A stretch of DNA of 48,698 nt from assembly GCA_947475845.1 (NCBI GenBank), contig CANJMO010000011.1:1-48698 (forward strand). The letters are read 5' to 3'. The notes below the pieces were generated by a model, which was not told the DNA's origin, searched no databases, and saw nothing but the letters and a program-made list of their open reading frames with translations. The DNA comes from Caulobacteraceae bacterium. GTDB taxonomy: Bacteria; Pseudomonadota; Alphaproteobacteria; Caulobacterales; Caulobacteraceae. How positions within the stretch are numbered: position 1 is the stretch's first letter; every line of letters starts with the position of its first letter. This document shows positions 7,255 to 44,531 of this stretch, piece by piece. The position numbers and the translations under genes were made by a program.

Positions 7255-8699
<1,445 letters not shown>

Positions 8700-8700
8700 G

Positions 8701-9399
8701 TCAGGCGCCCCTATGGGTGAAGTAGCCGACCAGCTGATATTGCATCAGCACGAAGCCGGCGGTGAGGATCACGATATTGGCGAGCACCGCCTGATTGGCG
8801 AACCCGCGCGCTTTACGCCACATCAGCATCAGGCCGAGCATCAAGCTCAGCGCGATCAGCTGACCGATCTCGACCCCGACGTTGAACGAGATGAGGTTGG
8901 CCAGCAGGCCCCGGTGCGACAGGTGCAGTTCCTGCAACTTGGTCGCCAACCCCAGGCCATGGAACAGGCCGAACACCAGCACCACCAGCCGCGTATCCGG
9001 CTGCACCCCGAACAGGGTGCGGAAGCCGTCGAGATTGTCGAACGCCTTGTACGCCACCGACAGGCCGATGATGGCGTCGATCAGGTAGGCGTTGACGTGG
9101 ATGTCGCCCAGCACCCCCGCCAGCAGGGTGATGCTGTGGCCCAGGCTGAACATGGTGACGTAGAGCGCCACATGCTTCAGGCGATAGAGGAAGAACACCA
9201 CCCCCAGGATGAACAGAAGATGGTCGTAGCCGGTCACCATGTGCTTGGCGCCGAGGTACAGGAACGGGCCGATATGGGCCCCGGCGCTGGAGGCGACGAA
9301 CGCCGCGTCCTTGCCGCTGATGTTGTGGGCCAAAGCCGGGCCGGCCAGGGCCAGGGTCATCAGACCCAGCACCGCCGCCATGGCGTGCAATCGGCGCAT
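8701..9399 (-). CDS. HupE/UreJ family membrane protein
   Basis: 232 residues with a signal peptide (MRRLHAMAAVLGLMTLALAG, cut near ALA/HN) and about six membrane segments. Family marks: an N-terminal His after cleavage, GYDHLLFILGVVFFLY, FSLGHSITLL and FGLFHGLGLATKL. HupE/UreJ proteins are proposed nickel/cobalt permeases or metal-handling membrane proteins. The genetic context (czcA remnant, anchor protein, His/Met-rich outer-membrane protein) points to divalent metal homeostasis. It is first in the two-gene minus-strand operon with the anchor protein. Confidence 0.87.
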   Translation of the reverse strand: MRRLHAMAAVLGLMTLALAGPALAHNISGKDAAFVASSAGAHIGPFLYLGAKHMVTGYDHLLFILGVVFFLYRLKHVALYVTMFSLGHSITLLAGVLGDIHVNAYLIDAIIGLSVAYKAFDNLDGFRTLFGVQPDTRLVVLVFGLFHGLGLATKLQELHLSHRGLLANLISFNVGVEIGQLIALSLMLGLMLMWRKARGFANQAVLANIVILTAGFVLMQYQLVGYFTHRGA

Positions 9400-9460
9400 C
9401 CATCCTCCTCGAAGTCTCGTTCTTATTGGGATACGCGCACTGGAGCGCCGAACCCTCGGA

Positions 9461-10749
9461 TCAGCCGAGTTTCAGGCGCAGGAACACCATAGCCCCGCTT
9501 GGACTCGATCCGTAAGGGGTCTTTAAGGCGGCGGGAGGGCCGCCGACGGCGTACAGCGCCCCGACCCCGAACTTCAGATGTTCTCGCAGGGCCCAGTCGT
9601 GCACCGCCCCCACCGCCAGTTTGCGCACCGTCTGGATCGGCACGCGCGGCGAGGTCAGGCTGCGCAGCTCGCCCTGCTCGGCCCTGGCGAACCCGGTCCA
9701 CGGCCCCTGCGAGACGGCGGACTCCAGCATCCAGTTGTTGAGCGGCGACGGCAGTTGGACGGCGCTGAGCTTGACGTAGCTGGCGGTTGTCGACCACCAG
9801 CCGGCGCCGACCGGGCGGGTGTAGATGGCGCTGGCCGACAGGATGCTCGGGTTGAGCGCCGGCATCAGCGAACTGGGGCTGTGCAGCACCGCGTAGGACG
9901 CCTGCAGCGCCAGACGGCTTGTCGGATTGACGCTGAGCCGCGCCGACCAGCTGTCCATGTCCGGGCTCATCAGCCGGTTCGGCAAGGGCGGGCGGCCGGT
10001 GAAGCCCGATCCTTCCAGCTTCCAGTCGCCGTGCGCCCAGCCGCCGGTGACCACCCCCGCCGCGGCCTCCGCCGCCTCGGGCCGCTGCACATAGATCGGC
10101 GCCAGAGGGCTATCTCCCGCCGACAGCCGGTCGAAGAACACCGGCGGTCCCAGCGCCGGCTGGCCGACCACGGCGGCGTAGGCGAACACCGTGTCGGTGA
10201 TGTTGACCCTGTGGCTGTAGGAACCCGACAGCTCGGACGCGATAGCCGAGGGCGTCTGCCGGTCGCCCGGGTTGGAGAAGGTCGAGGCGGCCGGGGTGTT
10301 GGGCGGATGCGCAGACGGAACTGGATCACGTCCATGTTCTCCAGATCGCGCCGCGCCGCCGCGCTGATCAGGCCCGAGGTGAAGCCCTCCTGCGTCTTCT
10401 GGAAACCGTCGACCCGCGCGTAACCGGCCTGCATCAGGGTGCTGACCATGAACAGCCACTGGCCGCGCGGCAGGCGCACCCCGATCCGCGGCGAGGCGTC
10501 CGGCTGCCAGGCCGTGCCCGACGTATCCCGCTCGAACGGATAGAAGCCGCGCGCGCCGCTGATGCCGGCCATACCGACCTCGGGCGAGTTCATGGTCATG
10601 CCACGCATCGTCCCATGATCCATGCCGGGCATGTTGGAGTGATCCATCCCCGGCATCGCCGAATGATCCATCCCCGGCATCAAGGCCATCGGCGGCGCCG
10701 CATCCTGAGCCAAGGCCGGCGCGGCGAGCAGCGTCAGGCCGAGCGCCAT
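9461..10749 (-). pseudogene. Outer-membrane-type metal-resistance protein with MPGMDHS repeats, frameshifted
   Basis: The N-terminal frame has a signal peptide (MALGLTLLAAPALAQ) and a His/Met-rich repeat (three MPGMDHx units, then MRGMTM), suggesting copper or other soft-metal binding. It continues as WLFMVSTLMQAGYARVDGFQ and ENMDVIQFRL. Near 10296-10318 the reading frame changes, and the rest (GDRQTPSAIASELSGSYSHR, FAYAAVVGQPALGPPVFFDR, to the final GAMVFLRLKLG with a beta-barrel-like terminus) continues in another frame to 9461. Neither half alone forms a complete protein. A start at ATG 10749 is inferred from the signal peptide. It neighbours HupE and the czcA remnant. Confidence 0.75.
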
Positions 10750-12360: not shown

Positions 12361-13092
12361 TTACTTACGCGCTCTTTGCCCAAACAGCATGGCGCGGGCC
12401 TTATCGGCCTCCGGACCGCTGGCCGACAACGCGTTGACGGTGCGCATGGCGTCTCCCTCGGTCACCGCCGCCACCGCCGCCGGCCGCGCCGCGATCTTGG
12501 TGCGCCAGGCCTCGGCTCTGGGGAATTCCGCCGTGTCGATGCCGTGCGCCGCCGGCGTGCGCATCCACGGCCACGACGCCATGTCGGCGATCGAATAGTC
12601 GCCGGCCAGATACTCACGGTCGGCCAGGCGCTTGTCGACCACGCCCCACAGGCGATGGACCTCGTTGGTGTAGCGGTTATTGCCATAGGCGATCATCCGC
12701 TGGTCCGGCAGCAGCCCCGCCGCATAGGTGCGGAAGTGATTGGCCTGCCCCGCCATCGGTCCCAGCCCACCCACCTGCCAGAACAGCCACTGCTCGACCT
12801 CGGCCCGCTCGCGCTCGCCCTGCGGATAAAACTGACCCGACTTGCGCCCCAGGTGCTGCAGGATCGCGCCGCTCTCGAAGATCGACAGCGGCTTGCCGTC
12901 CGCCGTGTCGAAATCGACGATCGCCGGCATCCGCCCATTGGGGCTCAGAGCCTGGAACTCCGGGGTGAACTGGTCACCGACGCCGATGTTCACCGGGACC
13001 ACTGTGTAGGCCAGGCCCATCTCGCGCAGCGCCAGCGAGATCTTGATGCCGTTCGGCGTCGGCCACATGTGCAGTTCGATCGGCTTGGTCAC
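12361..13092 (-). CDS. Glutathione S-transferase, YfcG/Ure2-like
   Basis: 243 residues. N-terminal thioredoxin-like domain: IELHMWPTPNGIKISLALRE, then FQALSPNGRMPAIVDFDTAD and IFESGAILQHLG, holding the cis-Pro and the E-S pair that bind glutathione. C-terminal helical domain: VEQWLFWQVGGLGPMAGQAN and YSIADMASWPW (N-capping box). The NG-x-K-x-S pattern and the SPNG(R/K)(M/I)PA loop are typical of YfcG-type disulfide-bond oxidoreductases. It acts in the cytosol on glutathione conjugates or disulfides. GTG 13092 with GGGGGAA upstream is the preferred start. It is divergent from arsR. Confidence 0.92.
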   Translation of the reverse strand: MTKPIELHMWPTPNGIKISLALREMGLAYTVVPVNIGVGDQFTPEFQALSPNGRMPAIVDFDTADGKPLSIFESGAILQHLGRKSGQFYPQGERERAEVEQWLFWQVGGLGPMAGQANHFRTYAAGLLPDQRMIAYGNNRYTNEVHRLWGVVDKRLADREYLAGDYSIADMASWPWMRTPAAHGIDTAEFPRAEAWRTKIAARPAAVAAVTEGDAMRTVNALSASGPEADKARAMLFGQRARK

Positions 13093-13154
13093 GGCTGTTC
13101 CCCCACAAAGCAACGCTCGCTAGATGGCCACATGCCCCGCGAGCCGCAAGCGCC

Positions 13155-13189
13155 TTGACCCGGCTTTATATTTCGATATTTCATGTATT
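13155..13189 (+). promoter_or_regulatory. arsR promoter/operator region
   Basis: An AT-rich island in a GC-rich setting directly before arsR. TTGACC at 13155-13160 could be a -35 element. Downstream, ATATTTC occurs twice in direct orientation (13168-13174 and 13176-13182). ArsR-family repressors bind AT-rich repeats overlapping their own promoter, so this is the likely autoregulatory site. No standard -10 stands out. Confidence 0.5.
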
Positions 13190-13525
13190 ATGGAATTATT
13201 GGAAGCGACTCGCGGGCTATCGGCCCTGGCCCAGCCTTCGCGGCTTCAGGTCTTCCGCCTCCTGATTCAAGCGGGACCGGAGGGCCTGGCCGCAGGGGAC
13301 ATCGCGCGCAGCCTCACTCTGGCGCCCAACACCCTGACCGCCCAGCTCCACATTCTCGTCGAGGCCGGACTGATCCACTCCGAGCGCCTCGGCCGCAATG
13401 TCATCTACCGGGCCGATCCCGAGGCCATCACCCAGCTGGTGACCTATCTGGTCGAGGACTGCTGCGGCGGGCGGCCGGAGGTCTGCGCGCCGCTGTCGGC
13501 GGTTCTGGAACTGTCCTGCTCATGA
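13190..13525 (+). CDS. arsR: ArsR-family arsenic-responsive repressor
   Basis: 111 residues with a winged helix-turn-helix (LSALAQPSRLQVFRLLIQAG ... GDIARSLTLAPNTLTAQLHI ... GLIHSERLGRNVIYRAD). The C-terminal region has a cysteine cluster, EDCCGGRPEVC, followed by another Cys at the end. Clustered C-terminal cysteines bind As(III) in one class of ArsR, instead of the CxC in the DNA-recognition helix, which is absent here. It is the first gene of arsR-aqpS-arsC and overlaps the next gene by ATGA. It probably represses the operon until arsenite binds. Confidence 0.93.
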   Translation: MELLEATRGLSALAQPSRLQVFRLLIQAGPEGLAAGDIARSLTLAPNTLTAQLHILVEAGLIHSERLGRNVIYRADPEAITQLVTYLVEDCCGGRPEVCAPLSAVLELSCS

Positions 13526-14202
13526 CCACTCTGCGCCGAGCCCTGGCCGCCGAGGCCCTCGGCGGCGCCTTCTTGCTGATGGCTGTGGTCGGCTCGGGGA
13601 TCATGGCCGAGCGCCTCAGCGGCGGAAACGTCGCCCTGGCGCTGCTGGCCAACACCATTGCCACGGCGGCGGCCCTGATCGTCCTGATCACCATCTGCGG
13701 TCCCGTCTCGGGCGCGCACTTCAATCCGGTGGTCAGCCTGGTGTTCTGGCTCAAAGGAGCCTTGCCCGGCGCGCGCGCCCTGGCCTACGTCGCGGCGCAG
13801 ATGGCGGGCGCTATCTTTGGGGTGTGGCTGGCCCATCTGATGTTCGGCGAGCCGATCTTCCAGCTTTCGACCAGGCTGCGGGGCGGACTTGGGCTGGAGG
13901 CGTCCGAGTTCGTCGCGGCCTTCGGTCTGATCGGCGTCATCCTCGGAACCGTCCGCTACCGCCCGGACATGACCGCGGCCGCCGTCGGCCTCTATATCGC
14001 AGCCGCCTATTGGTTCACCGCCTCGACCTCGTTCGCCAATCCGGCCGTGACTCTCGCCCGCGCCCTGAGCGATACCTTCGCCGGCATAGCCCCGGTCTCG
14101 GCCCCCGCCTTCATCGTCTCTCAGACGCTCGGCGCCCTGGCCGCCTGGGCGGTGTTCGAATGGCTCTTCAAGGAAGCAGGCACATGCCCGACGCCTCCGT
14201 GA
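13522..14202 (+). CDS. aqpS: Aquaglyceroporin (MIP family), arsenite channel AqpS-type
   Basis: 226 residues, six transmembrane segments plus two half-helices with NPA-type boxes: SGAHFNPVVSLVF (NPV in place of NPA) and STSFANPAVTLAR. NPV in the first box is common in aquaporins linked to ars operons. Lying between arsR and arsC, it probably lets arsenite made by ArsC leave the cell by diffusion, replacing an ArsB/Acr3 pump, as described for Sinorhizobium meliloti AqpS. The ATGA overlap with arsR and the 19-base overlap with arsC indicate one transcript and coupled translation. Confidence 0.9.
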   Translation: MTTLRRALAAEALGGAFLLMAVVGSGIMAERLSGGNVALALLANTIATAAALIVLITICGPVSGAHFNPVVSLVFWLKGALPGARALAYVAAQMAGAIFGVWLAHLMFGEPIFQLSTRLRGGLGLEASEFVAAFGLIGVILGTVRYRPDMTAAAVGLYIAAAYWFTASTSFANPAVTLARALSDTFAGIAPVSAPAFIVSQTLGALAAWAVFEWLFKEAGTCPTPP

Positions 14203-23522: not shown

Positions 23523-24206
23523 TCAGCCGCCGCTCGCCAGGGCGTAGCCGACCCCGGCGTCCGAGACGATGGCGTCCACGCCCAGCTTCTGGCGCAGCTG
23601 GCCGACATAGACCCTCAGGTACTGGATATCGGCTCGCTCGCTGCCCCACACGGCCAGCAGCAGTTGCTTATGGCTGAGGGTGCGCCCGAGGTTCACCGCC
23701 AGCTCGGCCAGCAGGTCGTACTCCTTGGACGACAGCTTCACAGCCACGCCCGCCCGCGTCACCAGCCGCAGGCCAAGGTCGATGGTCAGCTCCCCTGCCT
23801 GCACCACCGGCGCCGACCCTCGGGTCTGCACCCCATGCCGCAGCCCGGCCCGCACCCGCGCCAGCAGCTCCTCGATGCCGAACGGCTTTTGCACATAGTC
23901 GTCCGCGCCCAGATCGAGCGCCTGCACCTTGACCGCCTCCGCCTCCCGCGCCGACAGCACGATGATCGGCGTGGAGCCCTTGGCCCGGATGTCGCCGATC
24001 AGGCTCAGCCCGTCGCGGTCCGGCAACCCGAGGTCCAGCAGCACCAGATCGGGGCTATAGTGATTGAACCAGCGCAGCCCCTCCGCCGCCGTGCGCGCCC
24101 GCACCGGCCGGTAGCCCGCCGCCTTCAGCGTCGCCTCCAGCGCCGTGGCCAGCCCGGCGTCGTCTTCCACCATCAGGATGGTGGCCGGATCGGCGTCCCG
24201 CGTCAT
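23523..24206 (-). CDS. kdpE: Two-component response regulator, KdpE-like (OmpR family)
   Basis: 227 residues. Receiver domain with the acidic pair (LMVEDDAG), phospho-acceptor Asp in LVLLDLGLPDRDG, Ser/Thr in IIVLSARE and Lys in DYVQKPFG. The C-terminal winged helix (VKLSSKEYDLLAELAVNLGR, HKQLLLAVWGSERADIQYLR, VYVGQLRQKLG) matches KdpE closely. KdpE normally activates kdpFABC under potassium limitation, but no kdpFABC is in the window; the kup gene lies two genes away. ATGA overlap with the sensor gene. Confidence 0.9.
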   Translation of the reverse strand: MTRDADPATILMVEDDAGLATALEATLKAAGYRPVRARTAAEGLRWFNHYSPDLVLLDLGLPDRDGLSLIGDIRAKGSTPIIVLSAREAEAVKVQALDLGADDYVQKPFGIEELLARVRAGLRHGVQTRGSAPVVQAGELTIDLGLRLVTRAGVAVKLSSKEYDLLAELAVNLGRTLSHKQLLLAVWGSERADIQYLRVYVGQLRQKLGVDAIVSDAGVGYALASGG

Positions 24207-25711
24207 GGCGCGAACGGCAGCAGGATGCGCACCCGCGCGCCGTCACCGTCGGTGCGGTTGGACGCCTGCACCGTCCCGCCCTGCGCTTCGATGAACCCCC
24301 GCGCTATGGCCAGGCCAAGGCCGGTGCCCGGCGCCCATCCGTCGCCCTGCACTCCGCGCACGAAGCGCCCGAATAGCGGCTCGATCGGTTCGGGGAAGCC
24401 AGGCCCCTGATCCTCGACCTCGATCCAGCCGCCGTCGGCGTCGACGCCGATGCGCACATGGATCGGCGATCCGGCCGGCGCGTACTTGCCCGCGTTCTCC
24501 AGCAGGTTGGTCAGGGCGATCTCCACCAGATGCGGATCGGCCAGCACCAGCCTCGGCGAAGCGCCGTCTAGGTTCAGTGGGTGGCCGACCAGCGACGCCC
24601 CGGCCTGCTGCAGGGCGTCCGCCGCCAGATCCGCCGCCGTCACGGGCTGCGTCCGCACCACGAGCCCGCCGGCGTCCAGCCGGCCCATGTCCAGCAGGTT
24701 CGACACCATCCCGCTCAGCCGCGCCGTCTCCCGCTCGGCCACCGCCAGCAATTGCGCCCGCGCGGCGGCGTCATGCTGTCCGGAAAACTTCTGCAGGCTC
24801 TGCAGCGTCAACAGTATCGTCGATAGCGGCGTCTTCAGGTCGTGCGACACCGCCGCCAGCAGGTCGCCCTTCAGCTTCTGCCCCTCGACCTCCAGCCTGT
24901 TCTGCAGCGCCAGGTCGTCCAGGTGCGCCCGGTCCAACGCCACCGCCACATAGCCGCGCACGATGTCGATCAGCCGCTCGGCCGCCTCGGGCCGCCCGTC
25001 CGGCGCCCGCTCCAGCTGCACACCGATGGCCGCGCCCTGCCGCTGCGACGACATCACCGGCCAGAAGTCGAACCCGGCCTGCTCCACCGGATAGGCCCCC
25101 GCCCGGGTCGGCAGGCGGGACGCCAGGGCCCAGCTCGCCGCCTCCAGATCGATGGCGGTCAGGTCCGCGCCCTGCGTTTTCGCGGCGACCTCCATGCCCT
25201 CGCCCGTATCCAGCAGGATCGCCGCCGGCGCCCCGAACATCCGGCCCAGCGCCTCGGCCGCCGCCGCCGCGATATCCGGCCGTCGCGCCGCGCCAATCAG
25301 GCTCCTGGCCAGGGCCTGCAGCGCCAGCGCCTGATCGGCCGCCTGCCAGGCCACCTCGGCCCGCCGCCGCGACTGCCCCGCCACGGCGCTGACCAATGCG
25401 GCGGTGGCCAGCAGCAGCACCACCGCCCACACGTTCTCGGGGCTGGCCACCCGCAAGGTGTATCGCGGCGCGATCAGGAAGAAGTTGAACGCCAGCGACC
25501 CGCCCACCGCCGCCGTCAGGGCCGGCCCCCAGCCCAGGCTCGCCCCCGCGATCACGACCGGCAGCACGAACACCAGCGACAGGTTCGGCGCATGGGTCAG
25601 CTGGTCGAACAGCACCGCCGCCAGGGTCGCCGCCGCCAACAGCGCCAGCGCCAGGCCATAGCGGGCGAAGGCCGACAAGGGCGCCGAACGCTCCATATCC
25701 ACATCCGTCAT
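24203..25711 (-). CDS. KdpD-type sensor histidine kinase, short form
   Basis: 502 residues, against about 900 for classic KdpD. The N-terminal KdpD sensor domain with its Walker-type motif and the universal-stress domain are absent. What remains is the DUF4118 four-helix membrane part (about residues 15-115: YGLALALLAAATLAAVLFDQ, GGSLAFNFFLIAPRYTL), a GAF-like region, the HisKA box LLAAVSHDLKTPLSTILLTL, and the ATPase domain (LTNLLENAGKYAP, VEDQGPGFPE, GTGLGLAIARGF). The membrane part may sense the potassium or envelope signal alone. ATG 25711 begins MTDVDMERSAPL. It is divergent from kup with about 150 bases between. Confidence 0.88.
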   Translation of the reverse strand: MTDVDMERSAPLSAFARYGLALALLAAATLAAVLFDQLTHAPNLSLVFVLPVVIAGASLGWGPALTAAVGGSLAFNFFLIAPRYTLRVASPENVWAVVLLLATAALVSAVAGQSRRRAEVAWQAADQALALQALARSLIGAARRPDIAAAAAEALGRMFGAPAAILLDTGEGMEVAAKTQGADLTAIDLEAASWALASRLPTRAGAYPVEQAGFDFWPVMSSQRQGAAIGVQLERAPDGRPEAAERLIDIVRGYVAVALDRAHLDDLALQNRLEVEGQKLKGDLLAAVSHDLKTPLSTILLTLQSLQKFSGQHDAAARAQLLAVAERETARLSGMVSNLLDMGRLDAGGLVVRTQPVTAADLAADALQQAGASLVGHPLNLDGASPRLVLADPHLVEIALTNLLENAGKYAPAGSPIHVRIGVDADGGWIEVEDQGPGFPEPIEPLFGRFVRGVQGDGWAPGTGLGLAIARGFIEAQGGTVQASNRTDGDGARVRILLPFAP

Positions 25712-25860
25712 GACGGCGCTCCTTCGACACTACCGGCCCCTCTAGGAAGGCCCGTCAGCGCCGCGAAGCAAGGCCTGAGACCCGTGGTGCCCCCTCAACC
25801 ACATGGGATTTTTATGTCCCTCAGGCGCAGAACCGCCCTCGCTTAACCTGCGAGATCCCT

Positions 25861-27777
25861 ATGTCCGCCATCGCTTCCAGCGCTTCCGCCGTCGCCCCCG
25901 CTCCCTCCAAGGGCGTGGGCGCCTTCCTCGGCCTGGCCCTCGGCTCGGCGGGGGTGGTCTAGGGCGATATCGGCACCAGCCCGCTCTACGCCTTCAAGGA
26001 GTCCATCGCCCATCTTCGCGGCGCGGGCGGCGCGGTGCAGGGCGCCGACGCCATCGGCGTGGTCTCGCTGATGCTGTGGACCCTGATGGTCATCGTCACC
26101 ATCAAGTACGTCCTGGTCCTGATGCGCTTCGACAATCGCGGCGAAGGCGGGACCCTGTCCCTGATGGCCCTGGTCCAACGCGCCGGCGGGCGCGGCGCCC
26201 GGCTGATCCTGATTGTCGGTATGGTCGGCGCCGGCCTGTTCTTCGGCGACGCCATGCTGACCCCGGCCATCTCCGTGCTGTCGGCGGTCGAGGGGCTGGA
26301 GGTGATCAAGGGCGCGCAGGGCATCCAGCCCTTCATCGTGCCCATCGCCCTCGTTTTGCTGATCAGCCTGTTCATGGTCCAGAAGCGCGGCTCGGCCAGC
26401 GTCGGCGTCTGGTTCGGCCCGATCTGCGTCCTCTGGTTCGGGGTCATCGCCGTGATGGGCCTGTCCGCCATCCTCAAGGCGCCGCAGATCGTCGCCGCCC
26501 TCAATCCGCTGCAAGGCCTGGCCGTTCTCGGCCATCACCCCAAGCTCGGCCCCGCCATCCTCGGCTCGGTGTTCCTCACCGTCACCGGCGCCGAAGCCCT
26601 CTACGCCGACATGGGCCACTTCGGCCGCAAGCCGATCCAGGCCACCTGGCTTGCCCTGGTCTATCCCTGCCTGATCCTCAACTACCTCGGCCAGGGCGCC
26701 CTGGTGCTGACCAGTTCCAGCGCGGCCGACAACCCGTTCTTCCGCCTGGCCCCGGAATGGTTCCAGATTCCCCTGGTGGTCCTGGCCACCGCCGCCACCG
26801 TCATCGCCAGCCAGGCGGTGATCTCCGGCGCCTTCTCCCTCACCCAGCAGGCGGTGCAGCTGGGCCTGCTGCCGCGCATGACCCTGCGTCCCACCTCCGA
26901 GCATCACGAGGGCCAGATCTACGCGCCCCAGGTGAACTGGATCCTGGCCATCGGCGTCGCCGGCCTGGTGCTGGCCTTCAAGTCCTCCAGCGCCCTGGCC
27001 TCGGCCTACGGAATCTCGGTGATCGGCGCGATGATCACCTCGACCCTGCTGGCGGTGGTCGCCGTGCACCGGCTGAAGAAGCGCCAGATCTGGCTGGCGG
27101 TCCTGCTGCTGGCGCCGTTCCTGGTGGTGGAAACCGCGTTCCTCGGCGCCAACCTGATCAAGGTCATGCACGGCGGCTATGTGCCCCTGATGATCGCCTG
27201 CGCTCTGATCCTGATCATGTGGACCTGGATGCGCGGCTCGGCCAAGCTGGCCCGCACCGAGCAAGCCGGCAACGTCGCCCTGGCCGACATCCTGCCCTCG
27301 CTGATCGCCCGTCCGCCGATGCGCGCCAAGGGTACGGCCATCTTCCTCACCAGCGATCCCAAGACCGCCTCGGCCGCTATGCTGCACAACCTCAAGCACA
27401 ATCAGGTGCTGCACGAGCAGGTGGTGATCCTCACCGTCAAGGTCGTGCGCCGCCCGCGCGTGCCGGACGCCGACCGCATCGAGGTCGCCGATCTAGACTG
27501 CGGCTTCAAGGCCATGACCATGAGCTTCGGCTTCATGGAGACCCCCGATGTCGCCAAGGGCCTGCTGCTGGCGCGCAACAAGGGCCTGAAGTTCCACATC
27601 ATGCGCACCTCGTTCTTCCTCAGCCGCCGCACCCTAATCCCGCGCCACCGCGCCGGCCTAGGCTACCTTCAGGACCTGCTGTTCATCTTCCTGATGCGCA
27701 ACGCCGTCCGCGCCGCCGACTTCTTCCACATCCCGCCCTCGCGGGTGGTCGAGCTGGGCGCGCAGATCAACCTCTGA
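25861..27777 (+). pseudogene. kup: Kup potassium uptake transporter with an in-frame amber codon
   Basis: The frame from ATG 25861 reads MSAIASSASAVAPAPSKGVG, AFLGLALGSAGVV, then TAG (25960-25962), then GDIGTSPLYAFKES and an intact Kup protein to 27777 (638 codons in all, family-like). In Kup proteins the stop position is normally Tyr in G-V-V-Y-G-D-I-G-T-S-P-L-Y, so one base (TAC/TAT to TAG) breaks the gene. The rest has about twelve membrane segments and the cytosolic C-terminal domain (FHIPPSRVVELGAQINL at the end). A start at GTG 26035 would lack the first membrane helix. It may be a true null allele, a sequencing error, or suppressed. Confidence 0.88.
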
Positions 27778-27850: not shown

Positions 27851-28825
27851 ATGACCAAGCTGGTAGGCATCGACGACGTCCGCGCGCGGACCTTCGCCTT
27901 CCCCGCACCCCATTTCATCGGCGTTCAGGACCTCAATCGCCTGCAGGTGATGGACCTGCTGGCCCTGGCCGAAACCTTCGTCACCCTCAACCGGCAACAG
28001 GCCAAGAAGCTCGACCTGCTCAAGGGTCTGACGCTGATGAACCTGTTCTTCGAGAACTCGACGCGCACCCAGAGCTCCTTCGAGCTGGCCGGCAAACGCC
28101 TCGGCGCCGACGTGGTCAACATGAACCCGCGCGCCTCTTCCATGGCCAAGGGCGAGACCCTGATCGACACGGCGGTCACCCTCAACGCCATGCACCCCGA
28201 CCTCTTGGTCGTCCGCCACGCCTCCTCCGGCGCCGCGGCCCTCCTGGCGCAGAAGGTCTCCGGCAGCGTGATCAACGCCGGCGACGGCCAGCACGAACAC
28301 CCGACCCAGGCCCTGCTCGACGCCCTGTCGATCAAGCAGGCGTTCGGCCATGTCGACGGCCTGACCGTGGCCATCTGCGGCGACGTCGCCCACAGCCGCG
28401 TGGCCCGCTCCAACGTGATCATGCTGTCGATGCTCGGGGCCAACGTCCGCCTGGTCGGCCCGCCGACCCTGATCCCCGGCTCGGCCGAGCGCTGGGGCGT
28501 CGAGGTCCATCACGACATGCGCAAGGGCATCGCCGGCGCCGACGTCGTCATGATGCTGCGCCTGCAGCTGGAGCGGATGCAGGGCGCCCTGGTCCCCTCC
28601 ACCCGCGAGTACTTCCGCTTCTACGGCCTGGACCGCGAGAAGCTGGCCGCCGCCGCGCCCCATGTCAGGGTCATGCACCCCGGCCCGATGAACCGCGGGG
28701 TCGAGATCGACTCCGACGTGGCCGACGATCCCACCGTCAGCCTGATCCAGAACCAGGTCGAGATGGGGGTGGCCGTGCGCATGGCCGTCCTCGCCAGCCT
28801 CGCCGCCCGACTGGACGTGGCCTGA
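27851..28825 (+). CDS. pyrB: Aspartate carbamoyltransferase catalytic chain
   Basis: 324 residues. The carbamoyl-phosphate loop [20 protein letters not shown], the HASSGAAA (H-x-x-S/H) region, [30 protein letters not shown] and the final [11 protein letters not shown] are all present. It makes carbamoyl-aspartate, the second step of UMP synthesis. The stop overlaps the start of pyrC' (TGATG), as expected for a coupled pair. No pyrI is present, which fits the class where PyrB associates with a dihydroorotase-like partner. Confidence 0.98.
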
Positions 28826-30162
28826 TGGCGCCCAAACCCAGAACCATGACCGCCCGCTCCGGCGCAAACGGCCAAGCTATCGCCTTCATCAACGCCCGCA
28901 TGGTCGATCCCGAAGGCCGCTACGACGGCCCCGGCTCGGTGGTGGTCCAGGGCGGCGTGATCGCCGACGTGGTCCGCAAGCCCGGTCTGGGCGAACTGTC
29001 CGCCGATATCCGGGTGATCGACTGCAACGGGGCCATGCTCGCCCCGGGCCTGATCGACATCCGGGTCAAGACCGGCGAGCCGGGCGCAGAGCAGAAAGAG
29101 ACGCTGAAGTCCGCCTGCCGCGCCGCCGCCGCCGGGGGCGTCACCTCTATCGTCATCCAGCCCGACACCGACCCCGCCGTGGACGATCCGGCCACCGTCG
29201 ACTTCATCCTGCGCCGGGCGCGCGACATCGAGCTGGTTCACGTCTATTGCGCCGGCGCCGCCACCCAGTCGCTCGGCGGCGAGCGTATGGCCGAGATCGG
29301 CCTGATGCTGGAGGCTGGCGCCCGCTACCTCACCGACGTCGATCGCGTCATCGCCGACTCCAAGGTGATGCAGCGCGTCCTGACCTACGCCAAGGGCTTC
29401 GGCGCCCTGGTCGCGCACCGCCCCGCCGATCCCTATCTGTCGGCCGGAACCGTGGCCACGGGCGGCGAATTCGCCTCGCGCATGGGCTTGGCCGGCGCGC
29501 CGGTCGTCGCCGAGCGGATCATGCTGGAGCGAGACCTGGCCTTGGCCGAGATCACCGGCGCCCGCCTGCTGGTCGACCAGATCACCTGCGCCGACGCCCT
29601 GGAGAGCCTGGAGCGCGGCAAGAAGAAGGGGGTGCAGGTCACCGCCTCGGCCTCGATCAACCACCTCAGCTTCAACGAGCTGGATATCGGCGACTACCGC
29701 ACCTTCTACCGCCTCGACCCGCCCCTGCGCTGCGAGGACGACCGCCAGGCCCTGATCGACGCCATCTCGTCGGGCCTGGTCGAAGTCGTCACCTCCGCCC
29801 ACGCCCCCGCCCCCGCCGAGGACAAGCGTCTGCCCTTCGCCGAGGCGGTGCCGGGCGCGGTGGGTCTGGAAACCCTGCTCGCCGGCCTGCTGTCCCTGCA
29901 CCATGAGGACCGCGTGGCCCTGGTCGACCTGATGCGCACCGTCACCTACGCCCCGGCGACCCTGCTCGGCCTGCCCGGCGGACGCCTGTCGCCCGGCGCC
30001 CCGGCCGACCTCGTCCTGTGCGATCTCGACGCCCCCTTCGCCCTGGACGCCGACAAGCTGATCTCCAAGTCCAAGAACTCGCCGTTCGACGGCCGCCGCC
30101 TGCAGGGCCAGGTCCTGCTGACCATGGCCGGCGGCCGCATCGTCCACCAGGCCGAGGAATAG
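28825..30162 (+). CDS. Dihydroorotase-like protein PyrC', metal ligands missing (probably inactive)
   Basis: 445 residues, amidohydrolase fold. An active dihydroorotase has D-x-H-V-H-x-R-E-P-G; here the same place reads APGLIDIRVKTGEPG, so both His ligands and the substrate Arg are changed (His to Arg, His to Lys, Arg to Gly). The later D-H-A-P is TSAHAP, without the Asp. The remaining fold is well preserved (PFAEAVPGAVGLETLLAGL). Such pseudo-dihydroorotases are known beside pyrB in Pseudomonas, where they support the ATCase complex structurally. I infer the same role; a true pyrC should be elsewhere in the genome. Start overlaps the pyrB stop. Confidence 0.93.
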   Translation: MAPKPRTMTARSGANGQAIAFINARMVDPEGRYDGPGSVVVQGGVIADVVRKPGLGELSADIRVIDCNGAMLAPGLIDIRVKTGEPGAEQKETLKSACRAAAAGGVTSIVIQPDTDPAVDDPATVDFILRRARDIELVHVYCAGAATQSLGGERMAEIGLMLEAGARYLTDVDRVIADSKVMQRVLTYAKGFGALVAHRPADPYLSAGTVATGGEFASRMGLAGAPVVAERIMLERDLALAEITGARLLVDQITCADALESLERGKKKGVQVTASASINHLSFNELDIGDYRTFYRLDPPLRCEDDRQALIDAISSGLVEVVTSAHAPAPAEDKRLPFAEAVPGAVGLETLLAGLLSLHHEDRVALVDLMRTVTYAPATLLGLPGGRLSPGAPADLVLCDLDAPFALDADKLISKSKNSPFDGRRLQGQVLLTMAGGRIVHQAEE

Positions 30163-40712: not shown

Positions 40713-43358
40713 ATGAAAGTCGTCGTCGTCGAGAGCCCGGCCAAGGCCAAGACCATCAACAAGTACCTGGGCTCGGACTACGTCGTACTGGCCAGCTACG
40801 GGCACGTGCGCGACCTGCCGTCCAAGGACGGCTCGGTGCAGCCGGACGACGATTTCGCCATGACCTGGGAAGTCGATCCCAAGTCGGCCAAGCGGATCAA
40901 CGACATCGCCGACGCCATGAAGGGCGCCGACCGCCTGATTCTGGCCACCGACCCCGACCGCGAGGGCGAGGCCATCTCCTGGCACGTCCTGGAAATCCTC
41001 AACAAGAAGAAGGCGATCAAGGGCGCGGCCGTCGAACGGGTCGTGTTCAACGCCATTACCAAGTCGGCCGTCACCGAGGCGATGAAGAATCCCCGGGCCA
41101 TCGACATGGAACTGGTCGACGCCTACCTGGCCCGCCGCGCGCTCGACTATCTGGTCGGCTTCACCCTCTCGCCCGTCCTGTGGCGCAAGCTGCCGGGCTC
41201 GCGCTCGGCCGGCCGCGTTCAATCCGTCGCCCTGCGCCTGGTCGTCGAACGCGAGATCGAGATCGAGCAGTTCAAGACCCAGGAATACTGGACCGTCGAG
41301 GCCGACGTCACCGCCGGCTCCGACCCGTTCCTGGCCCGTCTGCACAAGCACGACGGCAAGCGCCTGACCAAGTTCGACCTCAACTCCGAGGCCCTGGCTC
41401 ACGCAGCCCAGGCGGCGGTGGAGGCCGGCCAGTTCAAGGTGTCGTCGGTCGAGAAGAAGCCGGCCAAGCGTTCCCCGGCCCCGCCCTTCACCACCTCGAC
41501 CCTGCAGCAGGAAGCCTCGCGCAAGCTCGGCTTCGCGGCCCAGCGCACCATGCAGGCCGCGCAGAAGCTCTATGAAGGCGTCGATATCGGCGGCGAGACC
41601 GTCGGCCTGATCACCTACATGCGGACCGACGGCGCCCAGGTCGCCCAGGAAGCCATCGTCGAGGCTCGCCAGGTCATCGCCGGCCGCTACGGCAAGGACT
41701 ACGTCCCCGAGCAGCCGCGCTACTACAAGACCAAGGCCAAGAACGCCCAGGAAGCCCACGAAGCCATCCGCCCCACCAGCCTCGACCGCAACCCGGGCTC
41801 CCTGCGCCTCGATGGCGACCTGGGCAAGCTCTACGAGCTGATCTGGAAGCGGATGATCGCCAGCCAGATGGAATCGGCCCGCGTCGAGCGCACCACCATC
41901 GATCTCGACAGCGCCGACGGCAAAACCGGGCTTCGCGCCACCGGCCAGGTGATCCTGTTCGACGGCTACATGGCCGCCTACGAGGAAGGCCGCGACGACG
42001 TCGCCAAGCACTCCGGCGACGAGGAGGACGAGACCGGCCGCCTGCCGATCGTGGCCGAGGGCGCCGCCGGCCGCGTGATCGCCGCCCGCTCCGACCAGCA
42101 CTTCACCGAACCGCCGCCGCGCTATTCGGAAGCCAGCCTGGTCAAGAAGATGGAAGAGCTCGGCATCGGCCGCCCCTCGACCTACGCCTCGATCCTCACC
42201 GTCCTGCGCGACCGCGCCTACGTCCACATGGACAAGAACCGGTTCATCCCCGACGACAAGGGCCGCCTGGTCACCGCCTTCCTCGAGCAGTTCTTCCGCC
42301 GCTACGTCGAATACGATTTCACCGCGGCCCTGGAGGAGAAGCTCGACAAGGTCTCCGCCGGCGAGATGCCGTACAAGGACCTGCTGCGCGACTTCTGGAA
42401 GGACTTCCACGCCGCCGTCCTCGAGATCGGCGAACTGCGTGTCACCAATGTGCTGGACGCCCTCAACGAGGCCCTCGGCCCGGTGATCTTCCCGGCCAAG
42501 GCCGACGGCAGCGACCCGCGCGTCTGCCCGACCTGCGGCACCGGCCAGCTCAGCCTCAAGACCAGCCGCTTCGGCGCCTTCATCGGCTGCTCCAACTATC
42601 CCGAATGCCGCTACACCCGCCCGATCGCCACCCCCGAGGGCGGCGACGGCGAGGCGGCGGGCGGCGACCGCGAGCTGGGCCTCGATCCGGCCACCATGGA
42701 AAAAGTCTGGCTCAAGGACGGCCGCTTCGGCCCCTACGTCCAGCTTGGTGAAGGCGAGAAGCCGCGCCGCTCATCCCTGCCCAAGGGCTGGCCCCCCGGC
42801 TCCATCGACCTGGACCAGGCCCTGCGCCTGCTGTCTCTGCCGCGCGAAGTCGGCAAGAGCCCCGACGACGGCAAGCCGATCCTGGCCGGCCTCGGCCGCT
42901 ACGGCCCCTACGTCCAGCACGACAAGACCTACGCCAGCCTGGCGAATATCGAGGAAGCCTTCGACGTCGGCCTCAACCGCGCCATCACGCTGATCGCCGA
43001 AAAGCTGGCCGGCGGCCCGCGCGGCGCCCGCGGCGCCTCCGCCGCCCCGCTCAAGGAGCTCGGCGACCATCCCGCCACCGGCAAGCCGATCCGCATCCTG
43101 GCCGGCCGCTTCGGTCCCTACATCAAGCACGAAGACACCAACGCCAACGTTCCGCGCGGCAAGGATCCGCAGGACGTCACGCTGGACGAAGCCGTCGCCC
43201 TGATCGCCGAACGCGAAGCCAAGGGCGGCTCCACCAAGAAGAAACCCGCCCGCAAGGCCGCCGCCCCCAAGCCGATGACCGCGAAGGTCGTCAAAGCCAA
43301 GAAACCGGCGGCGAAGAAGAAAGCCGCCGCCAAGAAGAAGCCTGCGCCGAAGGCCTAG
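40713..43358 (+). CDS. topA: DNA topoisomerase I
   Basis: 881 residues. Toprim domain MKVVVVESPAKAKTINKYLG ... LATDPDREGEAISWH; active-site Tyr in GLITYMRTDGAQ; LVKKMEELGIGRPSTYASIL; then a zinc-ribbon (CPTCGTGQLSLKTSRFGAFI then GCSNYPEC). After it come two to three further Topo_C_Rpt units (DGRFGPYVQLGEGEKPRRSS, GRYGPYVQHDKTYASLAN, GRFGPYIKHEDTNANVP) and a Lys/Ala tail (about residues 845-881). The enzyme relaxes negative supercoils. The stop TAG shares four bases (CTAG) with the stop of the converging membrane gene. Confidence 0.98.
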   Translation: MKVVVVESPAKAKTINKYLGSDYVVLASYGHVRDLPSKDGSVQPDDDFAMTWEVDPKSAKRINDIADAMKGADRLILATDPDREGEAISWHVLEILNKKKAIKGAAVERVVFNAITKSAVTEAMKNPRAIDMELVDAYLARRALDYLVGFTLSPVLWRKLPGSRSAGRVQSVALRLVVEREIEIEQFKTQEYWTVEADVTAGSDPFLARLHKHDGKRLTKFDLNSEALAHAAQAAVEAGQFKVSSVEKKPAKRSPAPPFTTSTLQQEASRKLGFAAQRTMQAAQKLYEGVDIGGETVGLITYMRTDGAQVAQEAIVEARQVIAGRYGKDYVPEQPRYYKTKAKNAQEAHEAIRPTSLDRNPGSLRLDGDLGKLYELIWKRMIASQMESARVERTTIDLDSADGKTGLRATGQVILFDGYMAAYEEGRDDVAKHSGDEEDETGRLPIVAEGAAGRVIAARSDQHFTEPPPRYSEASLVKKMEELGIGRPSTYASILTVLRDRAYVHMDKNRFIPDDKGRLVTAFLEQFFRRYVEYDFTAALEEKLDKVSAGEMPYKDLLRDFWKDFHAAVLEIGELRVTNVLDALNEALGPVIFPAKADGSDPRVCPTCGTGQLSLKTSRFGAFIGCSNYPECRYTRPIATPEGGDGEAAGGDRELGLDPATMEKVWLKDGRFGPYVQLGEGEKPRRSSLPKGWPPGSIDLDQALRLLSLPREVGKSPDDGKPILAGLGRYGPYVQHDKTYASLANIEEAFDVGLNRAITLIAEKLAGGPRGARGASAAPLKELGDHPATGKPIRILAGRFGPYIKHEDTNANVPRGKDPQDVTLDEAVALIAEREAKGGSTKKKPARKAAAPKPMTAKVVKAKKPAAKKKAAAKKKPAPKA

Positions 43359-44353
43359 AGACGAACTCCGCACAGGCCGCACATGATCGCGGCGCTCACC
43401 AGGGCGCTGCCGATCAGCCCAGCTGTCCAAAGACGGTTGGCGGCGGCCGCGCCGGCGCCGTGCGCCACGGCGACCGCGCGCAGCCCGGAAGATAGGTGCG
43501 CCAGGATGAAGAACACGCCTAGCGCATAGTGCGGCAGGAGGCGGATGCTCCAGGGATCATGGATCAGGCCCAGCGGCGCCGCCGTGGCCCAGTCTCAGCC
43601 GGTCTCCAGCTTGCGCACCACCCGCGCCGCGAACAGCGAGTTCATGTGGGTGATGATGAACGCCGCCAGATAGGCGCCCGAAGCGGCCTGAAAGGCGCGG
43701 TGCGCGTTCCCCGGGGCGGCGCTCCAACGCGCGGCCAGCCGCATGCCTGTCCCCGCCTGGAAGAGCACCAGGCCGATCAGCACCGGCTCGATGACCGGCG
43801 AACGATAGACATGCCGTCCCGCCTTCATCATCGCGGCGTGGGCGTCTGGCCCGATCAGACCGAGCAGATGGTTGCCCAGATGGAACAGGATGTAGACGGT
43901 GATCGCCGCCGCCGTCGCGCCATGGATCACCCGCCACCGGGCGACCGATCCCGCGATCGGCTTAGGCGCGGCGTTGCTGCCCGCCAGGACATAGGCGCCG
44001 ACCGCCAGCCAGGCGATCACCCAAACGGTCTTGTCCGTCATAGGCGGGTGCAGCAGGCCGACCGTTACGCCCGTCAGCACGAACAGCGGCGGCGCCCCTA
44101 GGACGAGATAGGCGAGCCGCCGCGCCCGCAGTTGGAACATCGAAGACGCGGGCCCCGTCTGCCGAAGAGTCAGCGCCAAACCCCAAAGCGGCGCCGCGAA
44201 CGCCGCCGTCAGCAGGGCCGCCGCGGCCAGGACAGCCGCTGGCGTCATCGCGCCGCTCGGTGGCGATACCGCGGAATGAAACCCGGACAGCAGGAATGGA
44301 TACGCGATCGCCGCCAGGACGGGGGCAAGACCGGAGGCGCGTTGTCTATTCAT
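43355..44353 (-). pseudogene. Cytochrome-b-like membrane protein with an in-frame TGA
   Basis: One frame runs from ATG 44353 (MNRQRASGLAPVLAAIAYPF) to TAG 43355 and is broken only by TGA 43595-43597. Before it: VIHGATAAAITVYILFHLGN and GAYLAAFIITHMNSLFAARV. After it: DWATAAPLGLIHDPWSIRLL, PHYALGVFFILAHLSSGLRA and two further hydrophobic helices. The repeated His in membrane helices (F-H-L-x-N-H, I-T-H-M-N-S, P-H-Y-A, L-A-H-L) suggest haem b ligands, as in succinate-dehydrogenase-type cytochrome b subunits. The part after the TGA holds the last haem-helix pattern, so truncation should disable it. The 257 codons upstream of the TGA could still be made. Confidence 0.75.
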
Positions 44354-44531
44354 CGGTCTGATGCCGACAGTGGCGTCCGGACATGAAGCCATCCCGCGAA
44401 ACGTCGAAGCTTCAGTATGCAAATTCACGGCGGCTCCGATAGGCCGCTTTTTGATCGGCCGTTGGCTAGGAATGAAGCGCCGACGCCGCGCCAACCGCGT
44501 TACAGTCTTCCACCGACTCAAGGACCCGCCT

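Follow-up and report, generated by a model that had tools for sequence, protein, structure and literature searches.

How a bacterium takes up potassium when the only Kup gene in its assembly carries an in-frame stop codon is the question raised by positions 25861-27777 (+ strand) of the window, the 48,698-nucleotide stretch of Caulobacteraceae DNA analyzed here (GCA_947475845.1, contig CANJMO010000011.1). The source assembly, G000, comprises 2,646,425 bases in 101 contigs and is 98.67% complete. The original prediction had listed a very recent change, an error or read-through as origins of the stop. The list is the right one; the first two remain, and read-through finds no support.

The interrupted gene is termed kup-A and the canonical Kup gene kup-B, labels coined in the present analysis for the accessory paralogue and its counterpart. 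Very probably the stop is an ordinary single-base nonsense TAG in a redundant second kup linked to kdpDE, whether as a draft error or as a young null allele, with kup-B keeping uptake. A single-base change, by error or mutation, would have produced TAG at the Tyr codon position of kup-A, and kup-B, hidden in the gap between contigs C56 and C48, would cover potassium uptake.

An in-frame TAG in the TM1 motif of kup-A

kup-A, a Kup-family K+/H+ symporter gene, opens with ATG at 25861, meets TAG at codon 34 (25960-25962, + strand) and continues through 604 open codons to a terminator ending at 27777, giving 638 codons when read through the stop. No second stop or further lesion is found within the frame 25861-27777. 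The read-through translation matches both Pfam domains, K_trans at residues 25-477 (562 bits) and K_trans_C at residues 489-637 (148 bits; cut-off 24.8 for each), and its best NCBIfam match is Kup, confirming the earlier description of a Kup frame complete save for this codon, whose coordinates and flanks were correctly given. A whole-genome search returns kup-A as the sole Kup match in the assembly (E 3.9e-168), with one TAG inside. Downstream, open frames for pyrB and a pyrC-type dihydroorotase occupy 27851-30162 (+ strand), an order kept in the genus mate G002, whose contig stops within pyrC.

The second codon after the TAG encodes the TM1-motif Asp; this Asp and the remainder of GDIGTSPLY are kept, and the aromatic codon is the one replaced. 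The position is occupied by 46 Tyr, 34 Phe and 1 Cys in 81 motif instances from 80 public Kup loci, so that the "near-invariant Tyr" first proposed holds as an aromatic residue and should read Tyr or Phe. Comparison with kup of close relatives, suggested at the outset, reveals Tyr in all seven other kup-A genes, encoded by TAC in both genus mates, with no stop at codon 34 in any of the seven. The 86%-identical orthologue on contig C103 of G002 differs in length by one codon.

A stop at codon 34 of 638 removes GDIGTSP and all that follows, as in a premature-stop pseudogene. Read as written, kup-A translation is predicted to end after 33 residues and to yield no working protein. The available portion of PMC6994465 names a VFGD/IYGD-type TM1 motif and reports its Asp (D23 in E. 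coli Kup, D36 in KimA) as essential for transport; the kup-A Asp is equated with D23 by motif, not by alignment. If the TAG is real, this Asp is removed and kup-A would be null.

kup-A as an accessory paralogue

At least one Kup match is present in 148 of 149 genomes of the same family. kup-A occurs in at least seven other genomes of the 149 scanned, a count from which fragments elsewhere may be missing. Among the matches listed, G002, G008, G014, G073, G092 and G107 carry genes 66-86% identical to kup-A, and G001 holds a partial copy at a contig edge, with 83% identity over 277 residues. Each of these seven carriers possesses a second Kup, kup-B, that is 50-55% identical. In a tree of 25 Kups, the eight kup-A proteins form a single clade (100/100). 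The other Kups of the seven carriers cluster with Kups from Caulobacter, Brevundimonas and Phenylobacterium records.

kup-A shares both domains (PF02705, PF22776) and GDIGTSPLY with Kup (TrkD), the low-affinity K+/H+ symporter of the KUP/HAK/KT family, but differs from it in the in-frame TAG and the linkage to kdpDE. Neither NCBIfam equivalog cut-off is reached by the kup-A read-through (652 of 883 and 494 of 540 bits); the G002 kup-B clears one of the two (677 of 883 and 568 of 540). Judged from tree and neighborhood, the window gene is classed as the accessory, kdpDE-linked paralogue and not as the housekeeping kup.

One further Kup gene with an in-frame TAG is found among the matches listed, at 1893-3800 of contig C7 in G031 (locus L146); the second Kup of that genome is stop-free among the matches listed. 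A stop shared with kup-A is rejected here: the G031 TAG lies near the C-terminus and the position stopped in the window is Tyr there, so the two are unrelated.

The expected place of kup-B in the assembly

The search for other potassium transporters, proposed together with the stop, returns no second Kup, KdpA or TrkH match in G000. In Caulobacter crescentus, Kup and Kdp are reported and Trk is reported absent, according to the available part of PMC4391529. KdpA is present in G002, and G001 holds a KdpA fragment at a contig edge. The flanks of the G002 kdpA locus (L257 8351 and 16311) lie only 99 bases apart on contig C19 of G000 (570-668), and short inner-flank pieces (L257 8371-8515 and 16089-16250) map together to C48 instead, in a comparison that scored 40 of 682 candidates and may miss weak matches. 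The closeness of the flanks on C19 makes kdpFABC look deleted from G000, or never present there.

The kup-B locus presents a different picture. In G002, locus L155 carries the kup-B frame at 8494-10464 and argG at 12367-13611; kup-B is flanked there by SDR and Rrf2 frames on one side and by 5'-nucleotidase and argG frames on the other. The G000 match to DNA on the left of kup-B ends at L155 6611, at base 2 of contig C56, and the match to DNA on the right begins at L155 12559, at base 3 of contig C48; 40 of 691 candidates were scored in this comparison, and weak matches may be missing. The 5.9-kb piece bearing kup-B therefore maps between two contig ends, C56 base 1 and C48 base 1. The conserved gene argG is cut by the edge of C48, unlike what a clean deletion would leave, which argues that C56/C48 is an assembly break.

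kup-B itself is not seen in G000, and its presence is something we infer: with kup-B in all seven other carriers and a contig break at its place, the source organism most likely does have the canonical kup, left unassembled in the gap between C56 and C48. Potassium uptake would then most likely be kept by kup-B. The puzzle of how uptake is kept is likely answered in this way and mostly dissolves, since kup-A is accessory and the place of kup-B falls between two contig ends.

That the sole K+ importer is truly broken, the organism living on another, unrecognized route, is improbable. The assembly as it stands, with one Kup, no KdpA, no TrkH match and a kdpFABC that looks truly deleted, speaks for such a loss, but the place of kup-B is a break between contig ends and not a closed junction, and both the near-universal presence of Kup in the family and the second Kup in all seven other kup-A carriers weigh against it.

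Internal stops elsewhere in the draft

Nonsense codon in a redundant paralogue, the preferred reading, is further supported by other interrupted genes in the same draft. Stops flanked on either side by coding-like sequence were surveyed in 794,074 bases of G000 (30%; the window and 40 stretches), giving 20 matches, of which eight, kup included, were judged interrupted genes; TAG, TAA and TGA are all present among them. The sorting into real interruptions and gene boundaries is an unblinded reading of translations by one judge. The same survey of G092, G067, G083, G097 and G047 gave 11 matches in 619,001 bases, none judged real, and the chance of all eight interrupted genes falling on the G000 side against these five relatives is about 0.01 (calculated by hand). 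G002 gave five matches in 137,131 bases, one judged real (a transglutaminase, L196 11255, with its stop within a Pfam match), and G073, G014, G107 and G008 together gave two in 69,850 bases, none judged real. Pfam covered nine of the 19 G000 matches besides kup and one G002 match, the remaining control matches being judged by eye. The coding model was seeded from G000; training on G092 instead gave 21 matches resembling shadow frames. A first, looser survey, with at least 264 matches, many of them taken for shadow frames, was not used.

Four of the seven interrupted genes besides kup have their stop inside a Pfam match, two of them weakly. The stop is clearly within the match in a PNPOx-like gene (TAA, L163 15441) and a histidine kinase (TAG, L164 17887). 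The weak cases are an RND-type membrane fusion protein (TAA, L161 7490), where a short CusB model extends over 237 residues, and a second histidine kinase (TAG, L170 19629), where HisKA scores below its cut-off and ends two residues past the stop. A spanning match is not demonstrated for a TonB receptor (TAG, L172 17701) or a PQQ dehydrogenase (TAG, L204 7633), and a membrane-protein-like frame in the window (43358-44500, − strand, TGA at 43595) has no Pfam match. As one of eight interruptions judged real in 30% of the draft, the kup stop does not stand out.

The remaining 12 of the 20 G000 matches were set aside as boundaries or unclear, two after a Pfam check and the rest by eye: window 22560, L160 3535, L162 5630, L163 8903, L168 12673, L169 14963, L172 19405 and 1560, L176 3392, L209 18930, L211 16952 and L212 9873. 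Two are plain gene boundaries by Pfam: window 22560 precedes a RuvX match, and L172 1560 is flanked by matches to COQ7 and GreA. One control match in G092 (L181 17656), a difficult case, was taken as a boundary.

Translations also suggest possible frameshifts at about 14877-15441 of L163 (the PNPOx-like gene), about 11959-12673 of L168 and about 14147-14960 of L169; we take the latter two to be a PseC-like aminotransferase and a SemiSWEET-like gene, respectively.

Consensus error or young null allele

A consensus or sequencing error and a real young null allele are about equally likely origins of the TAG. The claim that the frame shows no decay stands for lesions and is less clear for rate. 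Apart from the lack of a second stop, kup-A departs at 4 of 220 otherwise invariant columns, and four relatives do so at 2-5 of 222-225; the frames compared took in upstream non-coding codons, and rates were recomputed from the motif onward. Branch dN/dS of kup-A is 0.33 in the window lineage (bootstrap 0.23-0.49) versus 0.18 in G002 (0.11-0.26), the window value exceeding that of G002 in 99.5% of replicates in one computation and 100% in another (200 bootstraps each), and kdpD and kdpE reveal no comparable rise. The protein branch of kup-A is likewise longer in the tree (0.13 versus 0.053 in the nearest relative). This raised ratio and longer branch argue against a mere error. Decay is in turn countered by a dN of only 0.050 on the window branch versus 0.041 on that of G002 and by the lack of a second lesion. 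The rise in dN/dS is due for the most part to an unusually low dS (0.153 versus 0.227 in G002), so that ratio and branch length hint at relaxed selection but do not prove it. If real, the loss of kup-A would be young. With its single stop, open frame and expected second copy, the locus resembles a nonsense pseudogene or draft error in a redundant paralogue, and no difference from these is demonstrated.

Decoding of UAG

UAG is assigned the role of an ordinary stop in G000 on the basis of its release factor and terminator usage. RF1, whose loss would be expected on reassignment, is intact on contig C64 (488 bits, cut-off 423), and TAG is the commonest terminator, ending, in a 394-kb sample, 122 of the 250 called frames that are closed. 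The suggested check for amber-suppressor tRNA genes finds no CTA anticodon among 33 tRNAs typed by ARAGORN (of 34 tRNA matches). Trp and Ile tRNAs are absent from the typed tRNAs, so the recovered set is incomplete. No pyrrolysine synthetase scores above cut-off, PylS_Cterm reaching 25 of 178 bits, far below. Recoding would be marked by an in-frame UAG conserved in relatives, and all seven kup-A relatives carry a Tyr codon instead.

A leaky or suppressed UAG, yielding a small and perhaps regulatory amount of full-length Kup by read-through or a suppressor tRNA, has a low probability. The intact remainder of the kup-A frame and its upstream element would fit such leakage, and a suppressor tRNA could lie in a gap given the incomplete tRNA set. 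The typed tRNAs with no CTA among them, the intact RF1, the low PylS score and the absence of a stop at codon 34 in seven of seven relatives all point the other way, and the TAA and TGA interruptions elsewhere would be left unexplained by a UAG suppressor. The fuller version, in which a real amber codon, partly read through with a suppressor tRNA encoded in the unassembled part, would supply a low, tunable second Kup, is slightly less probable still.

Re-initiation past the stop is very unlikely to give a shortened working Kup. Past the TAG, the earliest in-frame start is a GTG at codon 59, which opens a 580-codon frame (26035-27777, + strand; 580 aa), but the product would be without the TM1 GDIGTSP motif, whose Asp is reported essential in the available portion of PMC6994465. 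Reassignment of UAG to an amino acid in the lineage, for which nothing speaks beyond the in-frame TAGs, has a negligible probability and is set aside because RF1 is intact, TAG ends 122 of 250 closed frames and internal stops are of all three kinds.

The preferred reading, an ordinary nonsense TAG in a redundant kup with kup-B keeping uptake, combines the fully supported kup-A clade, kup-B in all seven other carriers with a contig break at its place, the further in-frame stops of the same draft (eight judged real against none in five relatives), and an RF1 above its cut-off with TAG as the commonest terminator. The stop codon looks ordinary and matters little in itself.

The kdpDE-kup cassette

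The divergent KdpD/KdpE pair noticed beside kup-A is real. The kdpD-like gene (24203-25711, − strand) encodes a 502-aa sensor kinase with DUF4118, HisKA and HATPase_c domains, lacking the N-terminal portion found in full KdpD; it covers positions 403-882 of the 895-position KdpD model, scoring below the model cut-off. The kdpE-like gene (23523-24206, − strand) encodes a 227-aa response regulator whose best NCBIfam match is KdpE, also below cut-off. Divergent kdpD and kdpE adjoin kup-A in all seven relatives (loci L148-L154). The arrangement resembles the KdpD/KdpE two-component system in joining a DUF4118 sensor kinase and a KdpE-type regulator to a K+ transporter gene, but differs in the short KdpD and in having kup, not kdpFABC, as neighbor.

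Upstream of the kup-A start, a conserved 21-bp element (25796-25816, + strand) is common to the eight kup-A genomes with 0-2 mismatches in each. At up to four mismatches, the element has no match elsewhere in the 2,977,604 bases compared, a total that counts overlapping loci and takes in the G002 kdpFABC locus. It is likely a promoter or KdpE operator, and kup-A is probably under KdpDE control. Four of the seven kup-A relatives, G008, G014 (82% complete), G073 and G107, have no KdpA match. Together with the cassette, this suggests that KdpDE may control Kup instead of KdpFABC in those genomes.

The case carries a warning, in that scattered nonsense codons in a draft, together with a paralogue lost in a gap, can mimic a broken sole K+ importer. 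More useful than the stop codon itself is its by-product, a kdpDE-kup cassette that, like its 21-bp element, is conserved across four genera of a single family and suggests that KdpDE controls a Kup there.
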